Below are positions 1,447 through 38,327 of a stretch of 39,700 bases of DNA, piece by piece. Origin of the DNA: Candidatus Omnitrophota bacterium (GTDB lineage: Bacteria; Omnitrophota; Gorgyraeia; 1-14-0-20-64-10); assembly GCA_016201735.1 (NCBI GenBank), contig JACQCH010000012.1, forward strand, positions 1-39,700. The letters run 5' to 3'. Under the pieces are notes generated by a model that saw nothing but the letters and a program-made list of their open reading frames with translations, made no database searches and had not been told where the DNA came from. Each line of letters begins with the position of its first letter. The stretch's first letter is position 1. The translations under genes and the position numbers were made by a program.

Positions 1447-2241
1447 ATGAACCGGATTGATTCTCTGTTCGCCCGTCTGCGCCGGGAAAACGGCAAGGCC
1501 CTGATCGCCTATCTGACCGTCGGGTTCCCGTCGCTCCGGGCTCTGCCTGGGATCGTCGATCTGCTGGTTGGTGAAGGGGTGGATCTGATCGAATTGGGGA
1601 TTCCCTTCTCGGATCCGCTGGCCGACGGGCCGACGATTCAAGCCGCCTCCCAGTGGGCTCTGCGCCAGGGGGTGACGGTGGGAAAGGTGTTCGAGGCGGT
1701 GAGAGGTTTAAGGCGTCGGCACCGGGATCTTCCGATCGGGCTGATGACGTACTATAATCCGGTCAACCGGTTTGGCGTCAAAGATTTCTGCCGGGCCTGC
1801 GCCCGTGAACAGGTGGATGGGGTGATCATTCCGGACCTGCCTCCCGAGGAGGCGAACGAATTTATCCGGGCCGCCCGGCCCGCTGGGCTCGACACGATTT
1901 TCCTGGCCGCCCCGACGAGCCCGATCTCCCGGTTGAGGCAGATTGCCCGTTCTTCCCGCGGCTTCATCTATTACGTGAGCTTAACCGGCGTGACTGGGGC
2001 GCGCGCTTCTTTGCCCGGGCAGATGCAGGCTGATGTCCGGTCCATCAAGCGGATGACCCGCCTGCCGGTCTGCGTCGGGTTCGGGATTTCCGGGCCGGCT
2101 CAGGTGCGGCAGGTGGTCCGGGCGGCCGACGGGGTGATCATCGGCTCGGCGCTTCTTAACGCGATCGGTCGGTCTTCCAAGAATTCCTGGAAGCCGGTGG
2201 AAAGTTTTATTCGACTATTGAGGGCTGCCTGTCATGCGTAA
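1447..2241 (+). CDS. trpA: Tryptophan synthase alpha chain
   Basis: Cleaves indole-3-glycerol phosphate to indole and glyceraldehyde 3-phosphate; partner of TrpB. The ORF track joins it to upstream out-of-gene sequence. I choose ATG 1447 because a GGAAGGAAG Shine-Dalgarno lies 6 nt upstream and because this start places the catalytic residues at E49 (DLIELGIPF) and D60 (SDPLADGP), matching canonical TrpA numbering. An ATG at 1426 overlapping the trpB stop is the alternative. The product is 264 residues, normal for the family, with a TIM barrel, a PDLPPEEANEF loop 6 region and a C-terminal GFGIS phosphate-binding segment. The stop overlaps the manC start by 8 nt. Confidence 0.96.
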   Translation: MNRIDSLFARLRRENGKALIAYLTVGFPSLRALPGIVDLLVGEGVDLIELGIPFSDPLADGPTIQAASQWALRQGVTVGKVFEAVRGLRRRHRDLPIGLMTYYNPVNRFGVKDFCRACAREQVDGVIIPDLPPEEANEFIRAARPAGLDTIFLAAPTSPISRLRQIARSSRGFIYYVSLTGVTGARASLPGQMQADVRSIKRMTRLPVCVGFGISGPAQVRQVVRAADGVIIGSALLNAIGRSSKNSWKPVESFIRLLRAACHA

Positions 2242-3325
2242 CAGAACGGCTCCTAAATTGTGGGCGCTGATCATGGCCGGCGGGACCGGGGAACGGCTCT
2301 GGCCCTTGTCGAGGAGGCGGCATCCGAAACAGACGCTGAAGCTGGGAAGCAAACGTTCTCTGCTCCAGGTGGCCGCCGAACGTCTCAGAGGATTGGTTCC
2401 GGACAACCGGATCGTCGTCGTCACGACCAAGAACCAGGCGGCGATCGTCCGGCGGCAGGTCCCGAAGGTTTCTGCGGCCCATTTCTTGGTGGAGCCGGCC
2501 TCCCGGAACACCGCCGCAGCCGTCGGGTTGGGGACCTTGGCGATCCTGCAGGAGGATGCGGACGCGGTCATTCTGGTCACTCCCGCGGATCACCTGATTC
2601 GGCCGGTCCCTGAGTTTCACGTAACGGCGCGTCGGGCCGCTTCCCTCGCCGTGGAGCGGGACGGGCTGGTCTGCTTAGGGATCAAGCCGACCTATCCGGC
2701 GACCGGGTACGGCTACATCGAGCCGATGGGGAAACGGATTCCGTCGGGCGGGTACCGGGTCCGCCGATTTATTGAAAAGCCGATGCTGGCGGTGGCCCAG
2801 GAACTGATCCGCCGGCCCGGGATGGCCTGGAACAGCGGGATCTTCTGCTGGCGGGCGCGGGTGATCCTGGCGGCGATCCGGCAATGGCTGCCCGGTCTTT
2901 ACAGCGGATTGGAGCGGATCGAGCAAGGATGGGGAACACCGGCGGGCAAGGATCGGTTGAGCCAACTGTACCGTCAACTGCCGAGCATCTCGATCGACGT
3001 CGGGGTGCTGGAACGTTCCCGCCATGTCTGGGTGGTTCCGGCCGGTTTCTCCTGGGATGACGTCGGCTCCTGGAACAGTCTGGCTTTTCTCCATGAGGCG
3101 GACCGGGATGGGAATGTGGTTCTGGGAAGCTACGTCGGATTGGAGACGACCGGCTCCGTGATCGTCGGGGAGAATCGGCATTTGGTCGCCACCTTAGGGG
3201 TGAAGGATCTGATCATCGTGCAGGCCCCGGACGCGACGCTGGTCTGCCACAAGAGTCAGGCCCAAGGGGTGCGAAAGCTGGTCGCCCTGATGGCCGGCTC
3301 GCGAGCCATGAAGAGATACTTATGA
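2234..3325 (+). CDS. manC: Mannose-1-phosphate guanylyltransferase
   Basis: Makes GDP-mannose from mannose 1-phosphate and GTP, a precursor of LPS, O-antigen, capsule or glycoprotein sugars. The pyrophosphorylase signature AGGTGERLWPLSR is at about 15-27, followed by the EPASRNTAAAVG block, TPADHLI, the ATGYGYIEP stretch and RRFIEKP. At 363 residues it is the short form lacking a fused phosphomannose isomerase domain. The start overlaps trpA by 8 nt, suggesting coupled translation. A phosphohexomutase lies three genes downstream and could supply mannose 1-phosphate. The stop codon abuts a large palindromic element. Confidence 0.93.
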   Translation: MRNRTAPKLWALIMAGGTGERLWPLSRRRHPKQTLKLGSKRSLLQVAAERLRGLVPDNRIVVVTTKNQAAIVRRQVPKVSAAHFLVEPASRNTAAAVGLGTLAILQEDADAVILVTPADHLIRPVPEFHVTARRAASLAVERDGLVCLGIKPTYPATGYGYIEPMGKRIPSGGYRVRRFIEKPMLAVAQELIRRPGMAWNSGIFCWRARVILAAIRQWLPGLYSGLERIEQGWGTPAGKDRLSQLYRQLPSISIDVGVLERSRHVWVVPAGFSWDDVGSWNSLAFLHEADRDGNVVLGSYVGLETTGSVIVGENRHLVATLGVKDLIIVQAPDATLVCHKSQAQGVRKLVALMAGSRAMKRYL

Positions 3326-3463
3326 CCCCGCCCCTCCGGAGTATGCCCTCGGTAGAAGGGGTGGATTTTTTAAGATTGTGGGAGACGGCCGAGGGCATCT
3401 GTGCCTTCGGCACAGCGGTTCCATCCCTACAGGGATGGAACCGGAACTCCGGAGGGGCGGGGT
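3325..3463. repeat. Four-way-junction palindromic element at the manC/M16 junction
   Basis: An 18-bp perfect outer inverted repeat (3325-3342 with 3446-3463; left arm ACCCCGCCCCTCCGGAGT) encloses three contiguous hairpins. These are ATGCCCTCGG/CCGAGGGCAT (3343-3352 with 3389-3398, 36-nt loop); a 17-nt hairpin at 3399-3415 containing a C(TTCG)G tetraloop; and a 13-bp near-loopless hairpin at 3416-3443. Only two junction bases (3444-3445) are unpaired. The left outer arm begins at the last base of the manC stop; the right arm contains the GGAGG and GTG start of the next gene. The element could be a folded cis-regulatory RNA, or a mobile palindromic element that inserted at the junction. I do not recognise it as a named family. 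Confidence 0.85.
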
Positions 3464-4763
3464 GACGCCGACCCATTATCGGATTGGGCGCCACGCGTAT
3501 CACCGGACCGTGCTGTCGAACGGCTTGAGGATCGTCTCCGCTCCGCGGCATGAGGCGGAGTCGGTCACCGTCGGGGTTTGGATCAACGCCGGCGGGCGGC
3601 ATGAGAACCTCCGCTTAAACGGAATTTCCCATTTCTTGGAGCACCTTCTGTTCAAAGGGACGGCCCGGTTCTCTTCCCGGATGATCAAGGAAGCGATCGA
3701 GGGCCGGGGCGGGGCGCTCAATGCCTTCACCGACGAGGAATTCACCTGCGTCTGGGCGAAGGTTCAGCCGAAAGATCTTAAGACCACGGTCCAGGTTCTG
3801 ACCGAGATGGTTCTCTACTCCAAGCTGGACTTAAAGGAGATGGAGAAGGAACGGGCTGTGATCCTGGAAGAGATCCGGATGTACCGGGATCTGCCGATGC
3901 AGTCGGTTCACGACCTGTTGAATGGGCTGCTTTGGCCGAAGCACCCTCTGGGGATGATCCTTTCCGGGACGGAAAATTCCGTCCGCCGGATCCGGAAAGG
4001 AGATTTGGTCTCGTATCAGCGGCGGCACTACACGCCGGTGAACATCGTGATCGCCGCCTGCGGCCGGTTGAGCCACCGGGCGTTGGTGGAGGCCGTATCC
4101 GACTTATGGAAGAAGATTCCGCCGGGAAATCCGCAGAGGCCCCGGCGGGTCGTGCAGAATCAGCGCTCACCCCGCCTGAAGGTGGAGGTTAAGGAAACCG
4201 AGCAGACCCATCTGTGCCTGGGATTCCATGCCTTCCCCCGGAACCATCCGCATGCCCACGCGCTGAATCTGCTCAACGTGATCTTGGGCGGCAACATGTC
4301 TTCCCGGCTGTTCCAGAGGGTGAGGGAGGACCGGGGGCTGGCGTACGAGATCGGCTCCCAGGTGAGGCGCTTCCGGGACACCGGGCTTTTCTCCATCGCC
4401 GCGGGAGTGGAGCACCGGCATCTTGCCCGGTGCCTGGAGGTGATCTTGAAGGAATTGTCCCGGGTCTGCAAAGAGCCGGTGCGGCCCAAAGAATTCGAGC
4501 AGGCGCTGGAATTCTTCATCGGCCAGCTTCTTTTTTCTTTGGAAGACACGAGCGAACACATGTCCTGGATCGGGGAATGTGAGATGATCTTAGGCAGGGT
4601 GCAGCCGGTGGAAGCGGTCTTAGCTCAAGTTCAGCGGGTCAAGAGAGAGTACTTAACCCAGGTCGCCCGGGCGATCCTCCGGTCAAACCACTTAAGTCTC
4701 GCCGTCATCGGGCCGGTGGCTAAAAAGGTTTCGGGCGGTCTGCCGAAACTTCTGGAGCTTTAA
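3462..4763 (+). CDS. M16-family zinc metallopeptidase (processing peptidase-like)
   Basis: A 433-residue single-unit peptidase of the pitrilysin/mitochondrial processing peptidase family (M16B). The inverted zinc motif HFLEH is at 57-61 (ISHFLEHLLFKGT) and the third ligand glutamate is in VILEEIRMYRD near 137. The C-terminal half has the substrate-binding RVREDRGLAYEIGS segment. The track start at 3378 runs through the palindrome and gives no family-like sequence; GTG 3462 is preferred, with GGAGG 6 nt upstream and a product beginning THYRIGRHAYHRTVLSNG. The Shine-Dalgarno and start are buried in the right arm of the 3325-3463 structure, so translation may depend on the arriving manC ribosome or on unfolding. 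The native substrate cannot be told from sequence. Confidence 0.92.
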   Translation: MTPTHYRIGRHAYHRTVLSNGLRIVSAPRHEAESVTVGVWINAGGRHENLRLNGISHFLEHLLFKGTARFSSRMIKEAIEGRGGALNAFTDEEFTCVWAKVQPKDLKTTVQVLTEMVLYSKLDLKEMEKERAVILEEIRMYRDLPMQSVHDLLNGLLWPKHPLGMILSGTENSVRRIRKGDLVSYQRRHYTPVNIVIAACGRLSHRALVEAVSDLWKKIPPGNPQRPRRVVQNQRSPRLKVEVKETEQTHLCLGFHAFPRNHPHAHALNLLNVILGGNMSSRLFQRVREDRGLAYEIGSQVRRFRDTGLFSIAAGVEHRHLARCLEVILKELSRVCKEPVRPKEFEQALEFFIGQLLFSLEDTSEHMSWIGECEMILGRVQPVEAVLAQVQRVKREYLTQVARAILRSNHLSLAVIGPVAKKVSGGLPKLLEL

Positions 4764-14999: not shown

Positions 15000-15324
15000 G
15001 TTTCGCTTCTTTCTGGAGGATATGCAGAAATCCTGCGAGAAGGTAGTCCGATTTGCCCAGGGCTTGACCCGTGAGCAGTTCTTCGCGAAAGACGAGACTT
15101 TCGATGCGGTGATGCGGAACCTGGAGCTTATTGGAGAAGCTGCCAAGCATATTCCCGAGGAATTTCGCCAGCAGCACCCCGAAGTAGATTGGCGTAAGAT
15201 TGCCGGCTTTCGGGACATCGCGATTCATCACTATTTCGGTCTGGACACCGACATCCTCTGGGATCTTGTCACCGCGAAAGTCCCGGATCTTCTCGAAAAA
15301 TTGAAAGCTCTGTCTTCTAGATGA
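14989..15324 (+). CDS. hepT: HepT-type HEPN-domain ribonuclease toxin (DUF86)
   Basis: A 111-residue helical HEPN protein. The RNase motif R-x4-H-x-Y is present as [12 protein letters not shown] near 84-95, including the tyrosine that MntA modifies in studied systems. The start is GTG 14989 with AAGAGG 6 nt upstream, overlapping mntA. It overlaps the HNH gene start by 4 nt (ATGA), so all three genes are probably co-translated. The direct fusion of a third nuclease gene to this toxin-antitoxin operon is the unusual part. Confidence 0.92.
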
Positions 15325-15983
15325 AACAGGATTTCCTGGATTCGGTTAAGGAGATCATAGATTATCTGCTTCCTGAGCTGACGCCAGCGGAGATGTCTCT
15401 GTACTTTTACTTGTTTAGACGCTCTTACCTTGAACATGGCGGAGGGGAGGTTCGTGTAGGGAAAAGAACCATAGCTGCTCGATATGGGAAAGGTATGAGA
15501 GGGCGCCAGACCAATTTTGGGCATATAACCAAACTTTTAGCGCAGCTCATCGAGAAGGGATGTATTCAATCTGGAGATACAAATAGAGAAGGTACGCTTT
15601 ACAACGTGCGTCTGCCGGAAGAAATCCCTTTAGTTGGGGAGAAGATCAGAAACCTTATGCCCCAACGGTCTCAGGATGATTACTTCTCCGATCCAAAGAA
15701 GCGAGCCGAGTTATTTGAAAGGGATAAATGGATATGCCAGTATTGTGGCGAAAAGGTTACAGCCAAGAATGCAACCCTCGATCACTATATTCCTCAATGT
15801 AAAGGGGGTACCGGAACAAAAGAGAATCTTAAGTTGTGCTGTCTGGTATGCAACGGTATCAAATCAGGGCGGACCTACGAAGAAGCCGCTCCTTTTATCT
15901 TGAAGAAGATCCAGCAACACAAAATTCAGCTTGCTTCGTCTAGTGCGGATCAGAGAGCTTTTCCCGACTCTGGAGTTGCATAA
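15321..15983 (+). CDS. Winged-helix/HNH endonuclease
   Basis: A 220-residue protein. Residues about 15-95 ([47 protein letters not shown]) look like a winged-helix DNA-binding or replication-initiator-like domain. Residues about 125-195 form an HNH nuclease: [20 protein letters not shown] (the catalytic DH), [15 protein letters not shown], with two CxxC pairs for zinc. It overlaps hepT by ATGA, so it belongs to the mntA-hepT operon. It is visibly more AT-rich than the backbone genes, a sign of transfer. It could be a third effector, a homing or restriction nuclease, or cargo of the lost element. Confidence 0.8.
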
Positions 15984-16269: not shown

Positions 16270-17568
16270 ATGGACAAGGTTAACGTTGGATTGATCGGAC
16301 TGGGAACGGTGGGATCCGGGGTGGCGAAGATGCTGCTGACCCGGCGGGAATTCCTTGCCCGGCGGGCCGGGATTCCGCTCGCCCTGCGGCGGGTCTGCGT
16401 GCGGCACCCTCGGCGCAACCGCTCTGTCCACGTGGATGAGCGGCTGGTCACCGGCAACCCGAGAAACATCCTGCAGGATCCGGACATTCAAGTGGTGGTG
16501 GAGTTGGTCGGCGGGATCCATCCTGCGAAGGAGATCATCCTGGAAGCGATCAAGAACGGCAAGTCGGTGGTCACCGCGAACAAGGCCTTGCTCGCCCACC
16601 ATGGAGAGGAGCTGTTCCGGGCCGCTTCGAGGAAAGGGGTGGATTTTTATTTCGAGGCGAGCGTGGCCGCGGGAATCCCGATCATCAAGAGTTTGCGGGA
16701 GGCGTTGATCGGCAACGACATCGAGGTGCTCTACGGGATCTTGAATGGAACGACCAATTTCATCTTGACCGAGATGGCGCGGGGCGACGGCCGGTCGTTC
16801 CAGTCGGCGCTGAAGGAGGCGCAGGATCGGGGCTACGCGGAGCGGAACCCATCCCTCGACTTAAGGGGGATCGATTCGGCGCACAAGCTGGCCATCCTGG
16901 TTCTGCTGGCGTTCGGCAAGACGGTTCGGCCGGGACAGATTTACGCGGAGGGAATCCGGGAAATCACCGCCAACGACGTCCGGTACGCGCATGACTTCGG
17001 CTGCACGATCAAGCTGTTGGGAATCGCCAAGCGGGACGGGGAGGAGCTGGAGGTGCGGGTCCATCCGACGCTGCTGCCGAACAGCCACCCCCTTTCGAGC
17101 GTCAGCGGGGTGCACAATGCGGTCTCCGTGAAGGGAGATCTGGTCGGGGATCTGGTTCTCTACGGGCAGGGAGCCGGGCGCCTGCCGACGACAAGCGCTG
17201 TGATCGCCGACCTGGTGGATGTGGCGCGGAACCTGAAATACGGGTCGCCCCAGAGGGTTCCTCCTCCGCTGCCGGTCAAGCGGATCCGCCGACTGCGCCG
17301 GATCGGGGAAATCGAGGGGCGCTATTATTTCCGGTTCTCCTGCATCGACCGGCCCGGCGTTCTCTCCCGGATCGCCCGGATCCTGGGAGCGCACCGGATC
17401 TCGATCGCCAGCGTGCTTCAGAAGGACCGCCGACGGGAGCACATCGTTCCGGTCGTCATGATGACTCACGACGCCAAGGAGCGGGACGTTGAGGAGGCGC
17501 TGGCGGAGATTGACCGCCTGCCGGCCGTCCGCCGCAAGTCGGTGTCGATCCGAATGGAGCGGGGATGA
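16270..17568 (+). CDS. hom: Homoserine dehydrogenase
   Basis: NAD(P)H-dependent reduction of aspartate semialdehyde to homoserine, the branch point to threonine and methionine. The 432-residue monofunctional enzyme has an N-terminal Rossmann motif [16 protein letters not shown], the TANKALLA segment, the catalytic core [14 protein letters not shown] and a C-terminal ACT domain from about 350 ([20 protein letters not shown]) that is expected to sense threonine. The stop overlaps thrC as ATGA. It opens the threonine cluster. Confidence 0.97.
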
Positions 17569-18779
17569 AACGACGGCTCGGTGTACCTCGCCGTCGTTCG
17601 GAGGGGGAAACCCTGCGACGGTTTCCCCCTCCGGGCTCCTCTATCCGGCAAAAGCGATCGGTCTCGTTGAGGGGAATTTCCCATCCCCCCCAACATACCC
17701 TCCCTTCCAGAGGAATCTGGCCGGGGGTGATCGAGAAATACCGGGAGTTTCTCCCGGTGAATCCCGAGACGCCGGTGGTCACTCTCTTGGAAGGAAACAC
17801 GCCGCTCATTCCGGCCCGCCGGCTGGCAAATCGCCTCGGGCGCAATCTGCAGGTTTATTTCAAATACGAAGGTTTAAATCCCACCGGTTCCTTCAAGGAC
17901 CGGGGGATGACGATGGCCGTCTCCAAGGCGAAGGAAGAGGGAGCGACCGCGGTCATCTGCGCCTCGACCGGGAACACCTCCGCCTCCGCCGCGGCCTACG
18001 CGGCCCGGGCCGGCTTGAAATGCGTGGTGCTCGTTCCCAAGGGAGCGATCGCTCTGGGCAAACTGGCCCAGGCCTTAATCCACGGGGCGAAGGTGCTGGC
18101 ACTCGACGGCACGTTCGATCAGGCGTTGGAGCTGGTCCGGGAAATCGCAAAACAGCATCCGATCGCCCTGGTCAACTCGATCAACCCGTTCCGGCTGGAG
18201 GGGCAGAAGACCGGCGCTTTCGAGATCTGCGACGCGCTGGGCCGGCCGCCGGATTACCACGCCATTCCCGTCGGCAACGCCGGGAACATCACCGCCTACT
18301 GGCGCGGCTACAACGATTACTTCAAGGTAGGCCGGATCGATACTCGGCCCCGGATGCTCGGCTTCCAGGCCTCCGGTGCTGCACCGCTGGTCAAAGGGCA
18401 CGCCATCCGGAAGCCCGAAACGATCGCCACGGCGATACGGATCGGCAACCCGGCCAGTTGGGAGGCGGCGGTGGCCGCCAAGCGGGAGTCCGGCGGCTTG
18501 ATCGGCGCGGTGACCGACCGGGAGATCTTGGAAGCGTACAGTTTTCTCGCCCGCGAAGAAGGGATCTTCGTCGAGCCGGCCTCCGCCGCGTCGGTGGCCG
18601 GGGTGATCAAGCTGGCCAAGAAAGGGTATTTCCGTCGGGACAGCACGATCGTTTGCGTCCTGACCGGGCATGGACTGAAAGATCCGGAACGGGCCGTCAA
18701 GATGATCCAGACTCCGAAAGTCGTCAAGCCCTCCTTGGGGGCGGTCCTTCAGCAGATCGACCCCGAGATTTCCCGTTAA
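17565..18779 (+). CDS. thrC: Threonine synthase with palindrome-encoded N-terminal extension
   Basis: PLP enzyme converting O-phosphohomoserine to threonine. The PLP lysine is in [12 protein letters not shown], followed by [17 protein letters not shown] and a [10 protein letters not shown] phosphate-binding loop. At 404 residues it is about 50 longer than usual. The family-like start [14 protein letters not shown] begins only at residue 52, and the preceding basic, low-complexity stretch is translated from perfect palindromes (17569-17633). Removing the insert would give [13 protein letters not shown], a normal N-terminus. ATG 17565 overlapping hom is used; a GTG in PGVIEKY is the main alternative but has no ribosome site. 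Confidence 0.93.
17569..17633. repeat. Tandem palindromes inside thrC 5' coding region
   Basis: Two abutting perfect hairpins: AACGACGGC/GCCGTCGTT (17569-17577 with 17590-17598, 12-nt loop) and CGGAGGGGGAAACC/GGTTTCCCCCTCCG (17599-17612 with 17620-17633, 7-nt loop). Both fall within the extra N-terminal codons of thrC. Hairpins that touch with no gap also characterise the 3325-3463 element, so these may be related insertions. Confidence 0.8.
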
Positions 18780-18782
18780 ATG

Positions 18783-18791
18783 TGATATCCT
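18783..18791 (+). promoter_or_regulatory. Possible extended -10 upstream of AGLEE protein 1
   Basis: TGATATCCT fits an extended -10 (TGn plus TATCCT) directly after the thrC stop. The ATG is 20 nt further on, with a weak AAAGG in between. The same TATCCT hexamer is used at the stronger coaX promoter. No -35 is evident. Confidence 0.35.
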
Positions 18792-18811
18792 TGGTGAAAG
18801 GCAAACCCACT

Positions 18812-21799
18812 ATGCGGTTTAATTTTTTCAGTCGATTCTTAGCGTTTTTCCTATCCCTTTCCCTGACTTTGCCAAACTCCGCCCTCGCCCTGCGGGAAGA
18901 GTCCATTAAGGAGCAGGATCGGGATATTCTTGCCGGATTGGAGGAAACCCTCCTCGCCAGCGCCGCCGGACTCCTCCCACGCGTCAATGCCGTTCCAATT
19001 CCCGCCGCCGGGCTGGAGGAGATTCCACCGCCCGATCAACTCTATCGTTTGCTGTACTCAAAAGATGTGCGGCCTTCTGTCCGGCAAGTGCTCCTCAAAG
19101 TGGAGGAACAGGGGCGCAGACCATCGGTTTTCGAAGAGATCCAAAGGATATTGGGGGTCTTGCGGGGCGTTCGAGAAGAGGTGCAGGATATGAGCGAGGC
19201 GGAGCGTTTTCTCGTGACTTTCTACGAACTTGACCGCCAGCGCTTACTTGCGTCTCTCACTTCAGATCAGGTTTTGCTCAACGAGACCATTCGTGGCCTT
19301 GAGAAACTCCGCTGGTCTGCGTTCATGGATCCGGATCGGTATCCAGATCTGATCATGGAGAGAAGGAATTTCTATTTTCAGATTGCCCAATCCTATTGGT
19401 TTCGTGGGTTTTTAGGGGGCGAACGAGATGATCTGATTGTGGCACAACGCGATCTGGTAAGAGCCCTCGCAGAATCGAAACGGGCTGAGAATTCCTATCC
19501 GCAGATTCCCGCTTATATCGAGGTGGGGCGGCAGGTTATTCAACAGACGATAGAAAACATTGAGCGATTTGGATTAGAAAGAGGGGATCTCCACGATCCG
19601 CGGAACTTCTCCGCCGGGCTGGAGGAGAAGACCCGCAGGGTGGAAGGGCTGGCGCAGGAGCTGAAGGTAAGCCGCGGATTCGGCTTTATCGATGGGCGAA
19701 GTTCCGAATATCCGCAGCCACCGGATGTGAAAAAGATTGCTGGGTTCGCCGAGCAGGTTGCGGACCTCGGCCCGATTCCCAAGATTGATATCAAGATAGA
19801 TGATCCACTGGGGCTGGAGATAGTTCGACAACTCCGAGAGGACCGGCCGGACGAAGTGATCGGAGGCGCGATCGAGTCGGCATTTCAAGTTCCCAATGTG
19901 ATGTTGACTGCACAGGGGGGACACGACTTGATCATCAGTGCTCCTGTCGGTGTAATCGGTGATGTCCTGTACCAAGTCAATGGCCTAGCCCTGGTGGTTG
20001 CGAAGGTCAGGAATTGGCAGGAAGTGGAAAGGGCGGCGCTCGCGGGCGCGCGGGGGATCGAGGTGGAGCCCGCGGCAGGGCCTACGACGACCGTCGAGGA
20101 GACCCATGCTCTGCTGGAGGAGATCACACGGAACGCTGAGAGGATGGGGTTGCTTGTCTGGGGAAGCGCCGGAGGGGTGAAGGCGGACAACGCCGCCGCG
20201 CTCTTGTCCAAAGGGAATTACGTCGGCTTCAGCGTTGGACCGAAGACGTTCCAGGACAAGATTGCCTGGTTCAATATTTCTAGACGGGCGGCACAGCCCC
20301 CCGCCGCCGGGATCGAGGAGGCGGAAGGGGAAAAGGAGCGCTCCATTTCAAGGCGGCAGTGGTGGGGTCGAGTTGTGGGGACTCTACTTGGAGCATCGGC
20401 TGGCGGTCTCATGGGGAATGGGTTAGCAAGAGAGGTCGTTCGCGGATTGGATAGCCAGGTGAAACCTATCGGGGAACCAAAGGCTGTCCGGCTGGCGGAT
20501 GATCTTTCTCCGGCAGAAGTCTACGTTCCCTTAGGCTGGCCGGAAGTCCTCACCCCTGGAGCTCGGCTGATGGGAGGGGGCACGGTAAGTAGAGGAAGAT
20601 TCCCGATTCTTTTCGATCTCGACCGGCCAAGTGCTTTACCAGATCTTGACCCGTATAACGTTGAGATTGGTAGCCGGGAGCTCTCTATGCCTATGGTCGA
20701 GCGAATAAAACAGATGCAGGGAAATTCCCCTCTTGCCATCCGATTCCGACAGCCGGAAGGAGAGTTCAAAGAAATTTCCATCGAGATCACACCCACGGCT
20801 GGGCGGAGGGAGACCGTTCTTCGGATGAGACTTCTCTCATCTCCCAAGGCTGCGGACTATGACGATTTTCTTATCGCCGCAGAATCCTCCTCACCCGATC
20901 TTGAAATGGGGTTCCGACTGGTCAATGAGTCGGGACAGGGGCGATCGGAGTGGTCGCTTGAGGCAAGTCGGATCTCTGGTGAACGAACAACCACATGGTA
21001 CGCCTCTTTGCCCTCCGATCTCGATTGGGCCGCTTGGGAAAGATCCGGTCAGCTTACGGAGCTTCAGGTGATTCTGCGTCATCCTCCCGATGCCAAAGAG
21101 GCGAAATTAACGGTCCGTTCTCCCATTGTCGCTCGGACAGAATGGTATCAGGGATATCAGAAGCAGCGAAGGATAGGTAAGTTGGCTACCTATGCCGGCC
21201 CGGTCGTCGGTGCCGCCGCAGGGGCAGCCGTTGGTTATGGGGCGGCCCGACTTCTCGAAGGCAAATCTTCTCCCCGTGGCGGATCCGTCCCCCCCGCCGC
21301 CGGGATGGAGGAGGTGGGTCGCAAGAAGCTGGCGGAGGCGGTGCGGAAGTTCCAGGTGGAGCTGAACGAGAGTGTCAAGTTAGACGTAGACGCTGGATTT
21401 TACCTGGAAGGTAACGGAGCAGTCTTTGCCCCGATTCTGGCGCTTCTGGAGAGTCGGAGTTTATCGAAGATCGAGCGTTTTGCCGGGGTGGTGGAGACTC
21501 GGGAGGATCGGGACCGGCTGGCGGCGGTTGTGGAGAGCGATCCGAAGGCCCTGAGACTGATCCGGGAGAGGATTTATGTGGTCGAAGAACAAAAAGGAGA
21601 AAACCGTCTGACGCGCTATGAAACGGCGCAGGCATTGGCGGAGAGACATCTTGTGGGAATCGGCACCATTGTGAAGGTGAAGACAGGGAAATCGGATCTT
21701 CTTGTCCAGTTGAATCGTCTCTTGAGTTTCTTGGGGTACCGCCTGCCGACGGATCCTTCCGTCTGGGATGCGGCCCAGACCCTCCTCGAAGCCGCGTAA
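18812..21799 (+). CDS. Large secreted AGLEE-segmented protein 1
   Basis: A 995-residue protein embedded in the long track ORF; ATG 18812 is chosen because a signal peptide follows at once (FFSRFLAFFLSLSLTLPNSALA). Five AGLEE-like motifs lie near residues 40, 68, 268, 498 and 828: LAGLEE, PAAGLEE, SAGLEE, PAAGIEE and PAAGMEE. Between motifs 3 and 4 a segment resembles a degenerate triosephosphate-isomerase-like barrel (VEPAAGPTTTVEETHALLEE and SAGGVKADNAAALL), without a TIM catalytic histidine. Between motifs 4 and 5 two glycine-zipper hydrophobic helices (VVGTLLGASAGGLMG; YAGPVVGAAAGAAVGYGAA) flank a beta-rich region. The last 165 residues are helical. It interrupts the threonine cluster. Function unknown; export is inferred. 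Confidence 0.75.
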   Translation: MRFNFFSRFLAFFLSLSLTLPNSALALREESIKEQDRDILAGLEETLLASAAGLLPRVNAVPIPAAGLEEIPPPDQLYRLLYSKDVRPSVRQVLLKVEEQGRRPSVFEEIQRILGVLRGVREEVQDMSEAERFLVTFYELDRQRLLASLTSDQVLLNETIRGLEKLRWSAFMDPDRYPDLIMERRNFYFQIAQSYWFRGFLGGERDDLIVAQRDLVRALAESKRAENSYPQIPAYIEVGRQVIQQTIENIERFGLERGDLHDPRNFSAGLEEKTRRVEGLAQELKVSRGFGFIDGRSSEYPQPPDVKKIAGFAEQVADLGPIPKIDIKIDDPLGLEIVRQLREDRPDEVIGGAIESAFQVPNVMLTAQGGHDLIISAPVGVIGDVLYQVNGLALVVAKVRNWQEVERAALAGARGIEVEPAAGPTTTVEETHALLEEITRNAERMGLLVWGSAGGVKADNAAALLSKGNYVGFSVGPKTFQDKIAWFNISRRAAQPPAAGIEEAEGEKERSISRRQWWGRVVGTLLGASAGGLMGNGLAREVVRGLDSQVKPIGEPKAVRLADDLSPAEVYVPLGWPEVLTPGARLMGGGTVSRGRFPILFDLDRPSALPDLDPYNVEIGSRELSMPMVERIKQMQGNSPLAIRFRQPEGEFKEISIEITPTAGRRETVLRMRLLSSPKAADYDDFLIAAESSSPDLEMGFRLVNESGQGRSEWSLEASRISGERTTTWYASLPSDLDWAAWERSGQLTELQVILRHPPDAKEAKLTVRSPIVARTEWYQGYQKQRRIGKLATYAGPVVGAAAGAAVGYGAARLLEGKSSPRGGSVPPAAGMEEVGRKKLAEAVRKFQVELNESVKLDVDAGFYLEGNGAVFAPILALLESRSLSKIERFAGVVETREDRDRLAAVVESDPKALRLIRERIYVVEEQKGENRLTRYETAQALAERHLVGIGTIVKVKTGKSDLLVQLNRLLSFLGYRLPTDPSVWDAAQTLLEAA

Positions 21800-35447: not shown

Positions 35448-38327
35448 ATGTCTCAGTTTCAGGCAAACCCGAGGAAGGCCCTTTTTTTTGTACCCCGATG
35501 GCTGGCCCTTTTCTTAACCCTATGCCTTTCTCTGCCCGCCGGAGTTTATCCCGAGCCGAGTCGAGGGACCCTGCGGGCCGAAGCCAAGCAGGAATCTCAC
35601 CCGGAAGATCTCACGGTTGAACTTAAGCCCCCCCTCGCCGCTGGACTGGAGGAGCTGCCGGAGGAGATTCGCAGACCGCTCAAGGCCGCTCTGTCCTCTT
35701 TGGGGCGAAAGGATCCGCTCCTGCGGCGGTTGCTGGAGGAGCATCTGTTGCCGATGCTTATTTCCCCGCATTCCCAATCAGAGTACCGGGAAATTGTCTC
35801 TCGAGCGCAGAATCTTGTGGCGGAGATGGCCGAAACCGGCGGCTACTCTCCGCTGGAGCTGCGGGCTCTGAATGGAATCGTCAAGGGACTTTCCCATCGA
35901 GGAATCACGGCCTATACGCTTAATTTGCTGAACACCCATCTCCTCCTTCCTCGAGGATTCGTATTCAACATTCGGCCTGGCGGTCTATATCTAGGAGCCG
36001 TGGAGGGGTACGAGCTGCATCGGATCTCCGGAAGCCAGGTACTGGTCGCCGTCGTCTACACAAGAGATCCAAAACTACTGGGGCCATTGGGCCGTGAGCA
36101 GACGGAGCTCTACGGCCTGGCTTTCGTGGGAGTGGGCCACCCGGCCCAGGAGATGAAGGGGGATCGCCTGGAGGGGCTGGCCCACGCAGTAGATTCTGTA
36201 AAGCTTAATCTCGTTTTGATACCAGCCAGCGTGCGGGGTGTGCTTCAGGGAGTTCCTTTTCAGCAGGGCGCAACCCTGCCGGCCTACCTTCGGCTTGCCT
36301 CACGCAGGAAGGTTCCGTTGGCCATGGATATTCTCCTGGAAACTCGAGCGGGCTTACGGCAGATGCACAGCGGTCTTGTCGACGCCAACGACCAGGAACA
36401 GATAAATATTATCTGGGAAGAATATCCGGGGGTACTTGGATATTTTCGGGAATTCTTCCGGGGAAACCGACCAGCCCGCCGGTGGCTGGAGGGTCTATTT
36501 CTAGGAATGGGCTGGGATCACTTGACCGGGCGCGATTACGCGTTCCTGTGGATCGCCGCGAGGATGCACGCGTTGGATCCAAATGCTTCATTGGAACCCG
36601 CCCCGCTGGCGAAAATGGCGCGGACCATCTGGGAAGCCGAATTCTCTGTATCCGCTGACCCAATCCGAATTCCCGCCCGACGTATTTATCCAAGAACCGC
36701 GAAGGAAGCAGGAGAGCAGCTTCTCCGGCTGTCATCCGAAGGTGGTTCGCAGCAGAAGGGAGGTTTGGAGGAGAAGCCCGTCGATCCTCTGAAGGAGCCG
36801 GTGGCCGCCAAACAAGCCCGGGACATGTTTGACTATGTGGGCCGGATTCTCTCCGGCAAAGAGCTGGTGTCCGATTTTCTCTGGCCTCCTGAATCCAACC
36901 CTCTCGCTTATTCTCGGCGCAGTCAATTCCTCCACGCCAGGATGACCGGGTCAGTAGACGCAACGTTAGAAATTTACAACAAGTTGAGTGAGACGATCGG
37001 TCGGGCCGAGCGGCGGCTCGAGCTTTATCTCAGAGGTGTTCGAACGCTTGAAACCCTCCCCCGGATTTCCCGAATCATCCTGCAGATTGCATGGCACAAC
37101 GGGATGGGTGGAATCAAGACCAAGCATCCGGCGGTGGGGAAAAAGGAACTGAAGGTTTTTGCTGAGAAATACTGGGACTTCTCGGATCAGGGAAAGATTC
37201 CAGATGCAGCTCGCGCAGAGATTTGGGAACGGATGAAAGTTGGAGAAAGCTGGGGGAGCAGGGCCTCAAGATTCTTGCATTTGGAGGATGAGGAGCCTTT
37301 TGCCGGACCGTCGGATGAGAGACTCGTGAAGGCCTTCAGCGCCATCGAGGCGGTTCTAAGGTCTCCCGAATACAAGGCGCCGCGCAGTAAATCGGAGCGG
37401 CGGGGGGTGCGGGGCCCAGCTGTTTTGGAAGCGGATCCATTGGAGCCGCTCCATCAGTTGCGGGACCGATGGCGGGAGCTCTCTCTCGATGCGGTGCAGA
37501 GACTCATTGATACAGCGCCGCAGAAGGAGAAGCAGCCCATTGGCGCCGGTACCCCGCTTCACATCTCCGATCAGGTTGGCAGGAAGGAGGATCGGATCCA
37601 CAAGGAGGATGATGATCAGACCTTGGGCCGTCTGCAAACCCGGCTTAAGACCGGGCCGATGGGCATCGTTGTGGAGAGATCGGGGTCGAGGGTGCTGTTT
37701 CGGATTCTCAACAAAGGGATGGACAGGAGAGACGAAAATCCATCGGCTCGCAGCGAGGCGATCCGTCGGCTGAAAAAATCGATCCGGAGCGTTGAGCTTT
37801 TCCTGGAGAAATACCCCTATGCCAACTTGTTCCTCGATAGTGCCGGCCTGGAGGAGATGCGGGAGTTTGGGACAGTGGAGAAGTTTCTGGAGGAGTTTTC
37901 GGGACGGGTGCGAGGGATGGATTTGTCGAAAGCAGCAGAGCCGTTCCGGGCGGCGAATCATATCCTGGTCCTGCCGGGTTCGGATCTCACGGAAGCGGTG
38001 CTGGCCTTTACGCATCCGGAGTGGGTGGAAGCCGTCAAGGATCAACTGAGGAGCGATTTCATCCTCGCGGAGGCCTACCCAATCAATGGGAAGGTGGTGC
38101 CCCGGTCAGTGGTAATCCAGGAGGAAGGGATCGAAATTGCGAAACCAAATCCAGCGGTTCCCATCCTTGTCTTGCGCAGTCTGAAGGATATCTCGGAGTT
38201 AACCCCCGGCTTCGTCTACGCTGTGGCGGTGAATCGGGCGCTGGCCGGAAAGATTGTCGGGCCGATCATCGGGATTCTCACCTTTCAGGACGAGAAGGGG
38301 CGCACCTTCACCGCCCTCTTCGCGTAA
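35448..38327 (+). CDS. Large secreted AGLEE-segmented protein 2
   Basis: A 959-residue protein starting ATG 35448, immediately after the DUF2062 stop. A TACACT -10-like box ends 8 nt before the ATG and there is no Shine-Dalgarno. A signal peptide (WLALFLTLCLSLPAGVYP) is followed by GTLRAEAKQ, echoing ALREES in protein 1. AGLEE-type motifs lie near residues 64 (LAAGLEE), 439 (KGGLEE) and 801 (SAGLEE). Residues 70-430 are mixed alpha/beta with a VGVGHPAQEMKGDRLEGLAHAVDSVKLNLVLIP stretch described here only in part; the middle is rich in charged helices. No enzyme motif is recognised. The sequence encoding VYPEPSRGT resembles a decayed TCGAC-loop palindrome. Confidence 0.75.
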   Translation: MSQFQANPRKALFFVPRWLALFLTLCLSLPAGVYPEPSRGTLRAEAKQESHPEDLTVELKPPLAAGLEELPEEIRRPLKAALSSLGRKDPLLRRLLEEHLLPMLISPHSQSEYREIVSRAQNLVAEMAETGGYSPLELRALNGIVKGLSHRGITAYTLNLLNTHLLLPRGFVFNIRPGGLYLGAVEGYELHRISGSQVLVAVVYTRDPKLLGPLGREQTELYGLAFVGVGHPAQEMKGDRLEGLAHAVDSVKLNLVLIPASVRGVLQGVPFQQGATLPAYLRLASRRKVPLAMDILLETRAGLRQMHSGLVDANDQEQINIIWEEYPGVLGYFREFFRGNRPARRWLEGLFLGMGWDHLTGRDYAFLWIAARMHALDPNASLEPAPLAKMARTIWEAEFSVSADPIRIPARRIYPRTAKEAGEQLLRLSSEGGSQQKGGLEEKPVDPLKEPVAAKQARDMFDYVGRILSGKELVSDFLWPPESNPLAYSRRSQFLHARMTGSVDATLEIYNKLSETIGRAERRLELYLRGVRTLETLPRISRIILQIAWHNGMGGIKTKHPAVGKKELKVFAEKYWDFSDQGKIPDAARAEIWERMKVGESWGSRASRFLHLEDEEPFAGPSDERLVKAFSAIEAVLRSPEYKAPRSKSERRGVRGPAVLEADPLEPLHQLRDRWRELSLDAVQRLIDTAPQKEKQPIGAGTPLHISDQVGRKEDRIHKEDDDQTLGRLQTRLKTGPMGIVVERSGSRVLFRILNKGMDRRDENPSARSEAIRRLKKSIRSVELFLEKYPYANLFLDSAGLEEMREFGTVEKFLEEFSGRVRGMDLSKAAEPFRAANHILVLPGSDLTEAVLAFTHPEWVEAVKDQLRSDFILAEAYPINGKVVPRSVVIQEEGIEIAKPNPAVPILVLRSLKDISELTPGFVYAVAVNRALAGKIVGPIIGILTFQDEKGRTFTALFA
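35549..35568. repeat. Degenerate TCGAC-loop palindrome, copy 4
   Basis: TCCC-GAGCCGAGTCGA-GGGA is a short-armed (4 bp) match to the family, with a 12-nt loop. It lies in frame right after the signal peptide of AGLEE protein 2. The short arms make this the weakest of the four copies. Confidence 0.4.

Follow-up and report, generated by a model that had tools for sequence, protein, structure and literature searches.

Rickettsia palindromic elements (RPEs) are mobile palindromes of ~100–150 bp that form several families and lie in frame in coding sequence (PMC10969869, PMC6649704); they insert within genes, whose protein products thereby gain a peptide. In the mitochondria of Magnusiomyces, mobile hairpins called byp elements are tolerated through ribosome behaviour (mentioned in PMC6649704); ribosomes skip them within genes. 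Bacterial MITEs are short, occur in many copies, are bounded by terminal inverted repeats and a short target duplication, and have no transposase gene. REP elements, which go with RAYT/Y1 transposases, are palindromes dispersed through bacterial genomes; they lie outside genes and differ in their tetranucleotide. HEARO elements insert at ATGA or GTGA. In HEARO and IscB-IsrB elements alike NTGA lies next to the insertion or target, and for IsrB it is the reported adjacent motif (PMC9581776).

Here we describe an element that resembles each of these systems in part. We think it likely, from sequence comparison, that it represents a MITE-like mobile palindrome of one Omnitrophota family that sits inside the NTGA of start codons and carries a translatable mini-ORF that preserves coupling between neighbouring genes. 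Like RPEs, the elements are mobile palindromes of several families that can be read in frame; unlike RPEs, they split a start codon, form an ORF of their own that overlaps the gene on either side, and rebuild the start with their own GGAGG. Copies lie at gene starts and the mini-ORF ends at its own TGA, rather than being inserted in frame inside a gene with a fused peptide. As in MITEs, we found terminal inverted repeats, small size, dispersed copies and a TGA duplication with empty sites; in contrast to MITEs, the element is wholly palindromic with covarying arms, targets start codons and keeps a frame open. Searches for Y1, RRXRR and TnpB in incomplete MAGs found no partner transposon. The MITE review that we searched holds no case of a palindromic, start-codon-targeting, open-frame MITE. 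Compared with REP/RAYT systems, there is no Y1 gene in G000, the genome that holds our locus; compared with HEARO and IscB-IsrB elements, there is no long guide RNA and no associated ORF, and the body is fully palindromic. Ribosomes skip byps within genes, whereas they are predicted to translate this element, which lies between genes. The family combines MITE-like anatomy with the translational openness of RPEs, and stands apart from both in that its members split start codons and build an overlapping start anew. Our literature search, which covered few subscription journals, returned nothing on MITEs with translational coupling or on Omnitrophota repeats.

The manC–M16 junction and its fold

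The window (the whole stretch of DNA analysed, 39,700 nucleotides) contains, on the forward strand, a gene for a ManC-like mannose-1-phosphate guanylyltransferase (2234–3325; Pfam NTP_transferase, 2.4e-37, and ManC_GMP_beta-helix) followed by a gene for an M16 peptidase (3462–4763; Pfam Peptidase_M16 and M16_C, with orthologues). Between them is a 137-bp palindromic element at 3326–3462, CCCCGCCCCTCC...GGAGGGGCGGGG, one of about 70 copies in the genome. It follows an ATGA at 3322–3325, its insertion site, that includes the manC stop TGA (3323–3325) and that is a bare NTGA in relatives. A second TGA at 3463–3465, present in all copies, duplicates the target and forms part of the GTGA at 3462–3465, so that the peptidase gene starts at a GTG rebuilt by the element. 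The first-pass annotation had described a 139-nt gap between the two genes, which overlooked both the splitting of a start codon and the fact that 3322–3465 is itself an ORF: conceptual translation, begun at the original ATG and ended at the TGA that the new GTG overlaps, gives 47 codons and a stop (MTPPLRSMPSVEGVDFLRLWETAEGICAFGTAVPSLQGWNRNSGGAG). This mini-ORF is flanked by two 4-nt stop/start overlaps, ATGA at 3322–3325 and GTGA at 3462–3465.

The segment 3325–3463 folds at –98 kcal/mol with RNAfold, compared to –56.2 ± 4.3 kcal/mol for 200 dinucleotide shuffles, none of which equalled it (z = –9.6). An 18-bp outer stem (5' arm 3325–3342, 3' arm 3446–3463), whose positions 13–17 covary, encloses three abutting hairpins, and the earlier view that such a near-perfect four-way fold is not due to chance is borne out. 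Hairpin 1 (3343–3398) has an 11-bp stem and a loose 34-nt interior, hairpin 2 (3399–3415) carries the C(UUCG)G loop that had been claimed, and hairpin 3 (3416–3443) has a 12-bp stem. The description of almost every base as paired was slightly too strong, as the interior of hairpin 1 is mostly unpaired. The 3' arm lies over the first bases of the GTG (3462–3464) and over a Shine-Dalgarno-like GGAGG at 3451–3455, which is borne by the element 6 nt 5' of the GTG; the ribosome site of the peptidase gene is thus buried, as first proposed. Because the last 12 bases of the element are nearly invariant, this burial is a property of every copy and is not special to the M16 gene.

Elsewhere in the window, two large ORFs at 17489–21799 and 35448–38327 have a common signal-peptide-like start region and recurring AAGLEE/AAGMEE motifs, which are perhaps another translated repeat.

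Copies, arms and distribution

When we used the segment as a BLASTN query against its own genome (G000; 1.81 Mb, 67 contigs), we found 68 matches, seven of which are approximately full length or better with 85–93% identity, besides the window copy and one truncated copy. The end pattern TGACCCCGCCCCTCC, with ≤2 mismatches, gave 76 + 76 matches in G000 as compared to 5 + 5 for a reversed control, and we therefore estimate about 70 elements in this genome. Among 384 genomes of the class, a clear excess of the end pattern is confined to one Omnitrophota family. Complete elements are present in G000, G003, G007 and G008, and G001 has single ends only; beyond G000, three other genera of its family thus have copies. 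An exact 20-base end was found in only two Omnitrophota MAGs among GTDB genome contigs, a search that may omit the window's own genome, and viral contigs gave 0 exact matches to an 18-base element end. One decayed look-alike, TGA-flanked and at a gene start, is present in an AT-rich genome of another family (G300, L150 ~1500–1620), which may reflect MAG contamination or transfer.

We compared 76 distinct complete copies, taken from stretches fetched around matches (57 from G000, 9 from G007, 5 from G003 and 5 from G008). In all of them both ends closely match CCCCGCCCCTCC and GGAGGGGCGGGG, forming nearly invariant 12-bp inverted ends. Element size ranges from 96 to 503 bp with a median near 150 bp, and the sequence interior to the ends falls into ten clusters. 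Outer-stem positions 13–17 are paired in 73–75 of the 76 copies, compared to 42–53 expected from column shuffling, and an outer stem with exactly three branches was found in 65 of the 76 folded copies, with large variation in the length of the hairpin 1 loop. Selection may maintain the pairing of the arms, or one arm may be copied from the other as the DNA replicates. Within most clusters the inner part is strongly biased in orientation; rare copies have it inverted (L032, L059, L107). The elements have no transposase coding capacity.

Two groups of copies depart from this plan. In L037:2505–2705, L045:4038–4239, L049:2504–2743, L051 and L060, a longer shared sequence (CCCCTGTCCTCTGAGCC...GGACAGGGGC) replaces hairpin 3, and the mini-ORF is broken. 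Four long members of 287–503 bp (L050:2509–3011, L068:1501–1964, L072:1501–1971 and L044:2504–2790) contain another internal repeated sequence; the mini-ORF frame is open in three of the four, and the two that we tested gave 0 Pfam matches.

The first-pass annotation had offered two readings of the fold, a mobile palindromic element or a structured regulatory RNA of the M16 gene. The homologous copies and the covariation whose absence would have counted against it are both present, and about 70 dispersed copies, covarying arms and empty sites in relatives favour the mobile element. A cis-regulatory RNA of the riboswitch or thermosensor type controlling downstream translation would account for a strong fold that buries GGAGG and GTG and for conserved pairing with covariation. 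Copies, however, precede unrelated genes, the ten inner-sequence clusters have little in common, there is no conserved unpaired core such as a sensor needs, no Rfam family matches at gathering score anywhere in the window, and orthologous genes in relatives are without the element. We consider such an RNA very improbable.

Start codons as insertion sites

Read along the strand of the adjacent genes, nearly all copies have a TGA to the left and another to the right. At the manC–M16 junction the site is empty in four relatives, which have a bare 4-nt stop/start overlap: CTGTGAGC in G007, CTATGACA in G008, CTTTGACC in G002 and CTTTGAGG in G001. When other loci were compared both ways among G000, G003 and G007, we again found genes that lack the element, several of them with a plain NTGA start. 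Judged by these bare NTGA sites, an insertion adds the element and a single TGA. That some relatives lack the element at a given site also speaks for its mobility. At the start of one orthologue, encoding a peptidyl-tRNA hydrolase-like protein that begins VKLIVGLGNP, related but strongly diverged elements are present in both G000 (L042:641–757) and G007 (L115:1504–1658); this pair may go back to one ancient insertion in a common ancestor or to two separate events.

Among the first 60 copies, the four bases on the left read ATGA in 34, GTGA in 12, TTGA in 8, CTGA in 3 and are altered in 3. CTGA is depleted (p about 1e-4), and the spectrum resembles start-codon usage, unlike a plain TGA target. 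On the right, the element's terminal G and the TGA make a new GTG start, six bases after a GGAGG, and this GTG opens a long ORF in 72 of the 76 copies (57 of the first 60, at >80 codons, and 15 of 16 from relatives). The left TGA also terminates a long upstream ORF in 43 of the 60 copies.

This location bears on whether the family is an ordinary MITE moved by a transposase that targets plain TGA. On that account the position at starts and the open frame would be what purifying selection has left, with no coupling function beyond sparing genes. Twelve-bp inverted ends, a 3-bp duplication, many copies, the lack of transposase coding capacity and the existence of broken-frame copies all fit, and the rare inverted inner parts agree with insertion in either orientation. 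Most copies would then be expected at neutral noncoding TGA sites. In ~280 kb of G000, a rough gene call places 1,173 TGA triplets in noncoding DNA and finds 102 start codons with an A after them, so random insertion into harmless TGA sites would not give the observed location of 57 of 60 copies; together with the depletion of CTGA, this leads us to regard a plain TGA target as unlikely.

Not every start that carries an element overlaps an upstream stop. Among 24 copies without an overlap, 6 have a –10 box 7–11 nt before the start codon, compared to 1.7% of control NTGA sites, which suggests that these are leaderless starts. TATAAT-like boxes at this distance 5' of the start codon are present in L053, L056, L110, L116, L062 and L065, and their sequences suggest that this lineage commonly uses leaderless mRNAs. 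We also considered a Shine-Dalgarno sequence as a component of the target and rejected it, as there is no upstream enrichment (17 of 76 copies, compared to 20% of control sites). A tentative extension of the preferred reading, which we would not yet favour, is that the insertion machinery recognises start codons as such, both at operon overlaps and at apparently leaderless starts with a –10 box 7–11 nt upstream. The element, complete with a coupling ORF and a ribosome site of its own, would then be a transposable start-codon cassette, possibly translation- or RNA-guided.

The mobile palindrome would depend on a trans-acting enzyme for its movement. Whether the event is a 3-bp duplication or an HUH-type insertion behind NTGA, with the element bringing its own TGA, the sequence left would be identical. 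The mobiliser could be that of an IS200/IS605 or IscB/IsrB type element, with the palindrome as a non-autonomous HUH relative that entered 3' of NTGA and has a TGA of its own at its end. The IsrB-like NTGA, the hairpin-rich ends and the strong orientation bias of the inner part in most clusters fit this, while the inverted inner parts of L032, L059 and L107 need an extra step and are more simply explained by a 3-bp duplication. Searches for the enzyme also weigh against it. Y1 transposase (PF01797) gave no match in G000 or G008, although control genomes matched, and the Y1 genes of G003 and G007 have no element ends beside them. RRXRR gave no match in nine family genomes; the control genomes were equally silent. 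The only TnpB-like match in the nine genomes, a fragment at a contig edge (L152, G000:C54), is not flanked by element ends either. Thus, in these incomplete MAGs, the Y1, RRXRR and TnpB searches found no transposase with matching ends. We regard an HUH relative as rather doubtful; it concerns the mobiliser alone and can be combined with the start-codon palindrome that we prefer. The window itself has a 220-aa HNH endonuclease-like protein at 15321–15983 (Pfam HNH, 4.3e-9) in an otherwise housekeeping neighbourhood.

The mini-ORF and proposed translational coupling

The mini-ORF frame runs NTG ACC CCG CCC CTC C.. from the original start to ..GGG GCG GGG TGA overlapping the new GTG. It requires an element length of 2 mod 3, which we found in 61 of 76 copies (binomial p about 6e-17) and, when each distinct length is counted once, in 24 of 36 (p about 4e-5); the first value is too small because copies are related, and cluster members share ancestry so that copy counts are not independent. 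This length is the majority in nine of the ten clusters, the exception being the CCATGG type. Over the 3,344 codons of these 61 copies, the mini-ORF frame contains 5 stops as compared to 116 and 61 in the other frames, and 57 of the 61 are fully open, compared to about 24 expected when unpaired letters are shuffled. The mini-ORF is open even in copies of 287, 464 and 503 bp. Because 19 of the 76 copies, including most of the CCATGG type, lack an open mini-ORF of the right length, an element can do without the open frame.

Substitution rates are similar at the three codon positions, with only weak bias, and openness therefore seems, from sequence alone, to count for more than the peptide sequence; selection on the peptide was set aside as an explanation with the codon-position signal only weak. 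A family of small-protein genes spread by duplication, in which the peptide is the function, would explain why most copies have an open frame whose termini are fixed (MTPPL...GGAG). The invariant arms, however, impose these termini, the middle part differs between types, the codon positions show no marked difference in rate and there is no Pfam match, which makes such a family highly unlikely.

We propose that the host gene's original start, which is often also the preceding gene's stop, serves as the start of the mini-ORF. At the window locus, a ribosome leaving manC would terminate at the TGA at 3323–3325, reinitiate at the overlapping ATG (3322–3324) and translate 47 codons across the element, melting the fold. 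It would then stop at the TGA at 3463–3465, which overlaps the GTG at 3462–3464, by which point the stem that hides GGAGG would be open, and the freed GGAGG would allow translation of the host gene from the new GTG. A coupled pair A-B would become a coupled chain A-miniORF-B with ATGA and GTGA overlaps; as the chain would stay coupled, the insertion would be nearly harmless. Upstream translation can open hidden starts (PMC6728339), and a stop-to-start spacing of ~20 nt nearly abolishes coupling in Haloferax volcanii and E. coli (PMC10666635). A plain 140-nt insertion should thus uncouple the genes, which an overlapping ORF need not do. The A-miniORF-B arrangement probably both keeps translational coupling and uncovers the downstream ribosome site.

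An insertion between tightly coupled operon genes should break downstream expression, and this element family shows a workaround: what is inserted forms an ORF bounded by stop/start overlaps, through which a chain of coupled translation can persist. An almost perfect palindrome is here both coding and structured. Gene starts are easily misannotated at the element junctions. That the mobility of a piece of DNA should be so specific for start codons is a puzzle, and the roughly 70 copies amount to about 70 natural experiments on termination-reinitiation within one genome.
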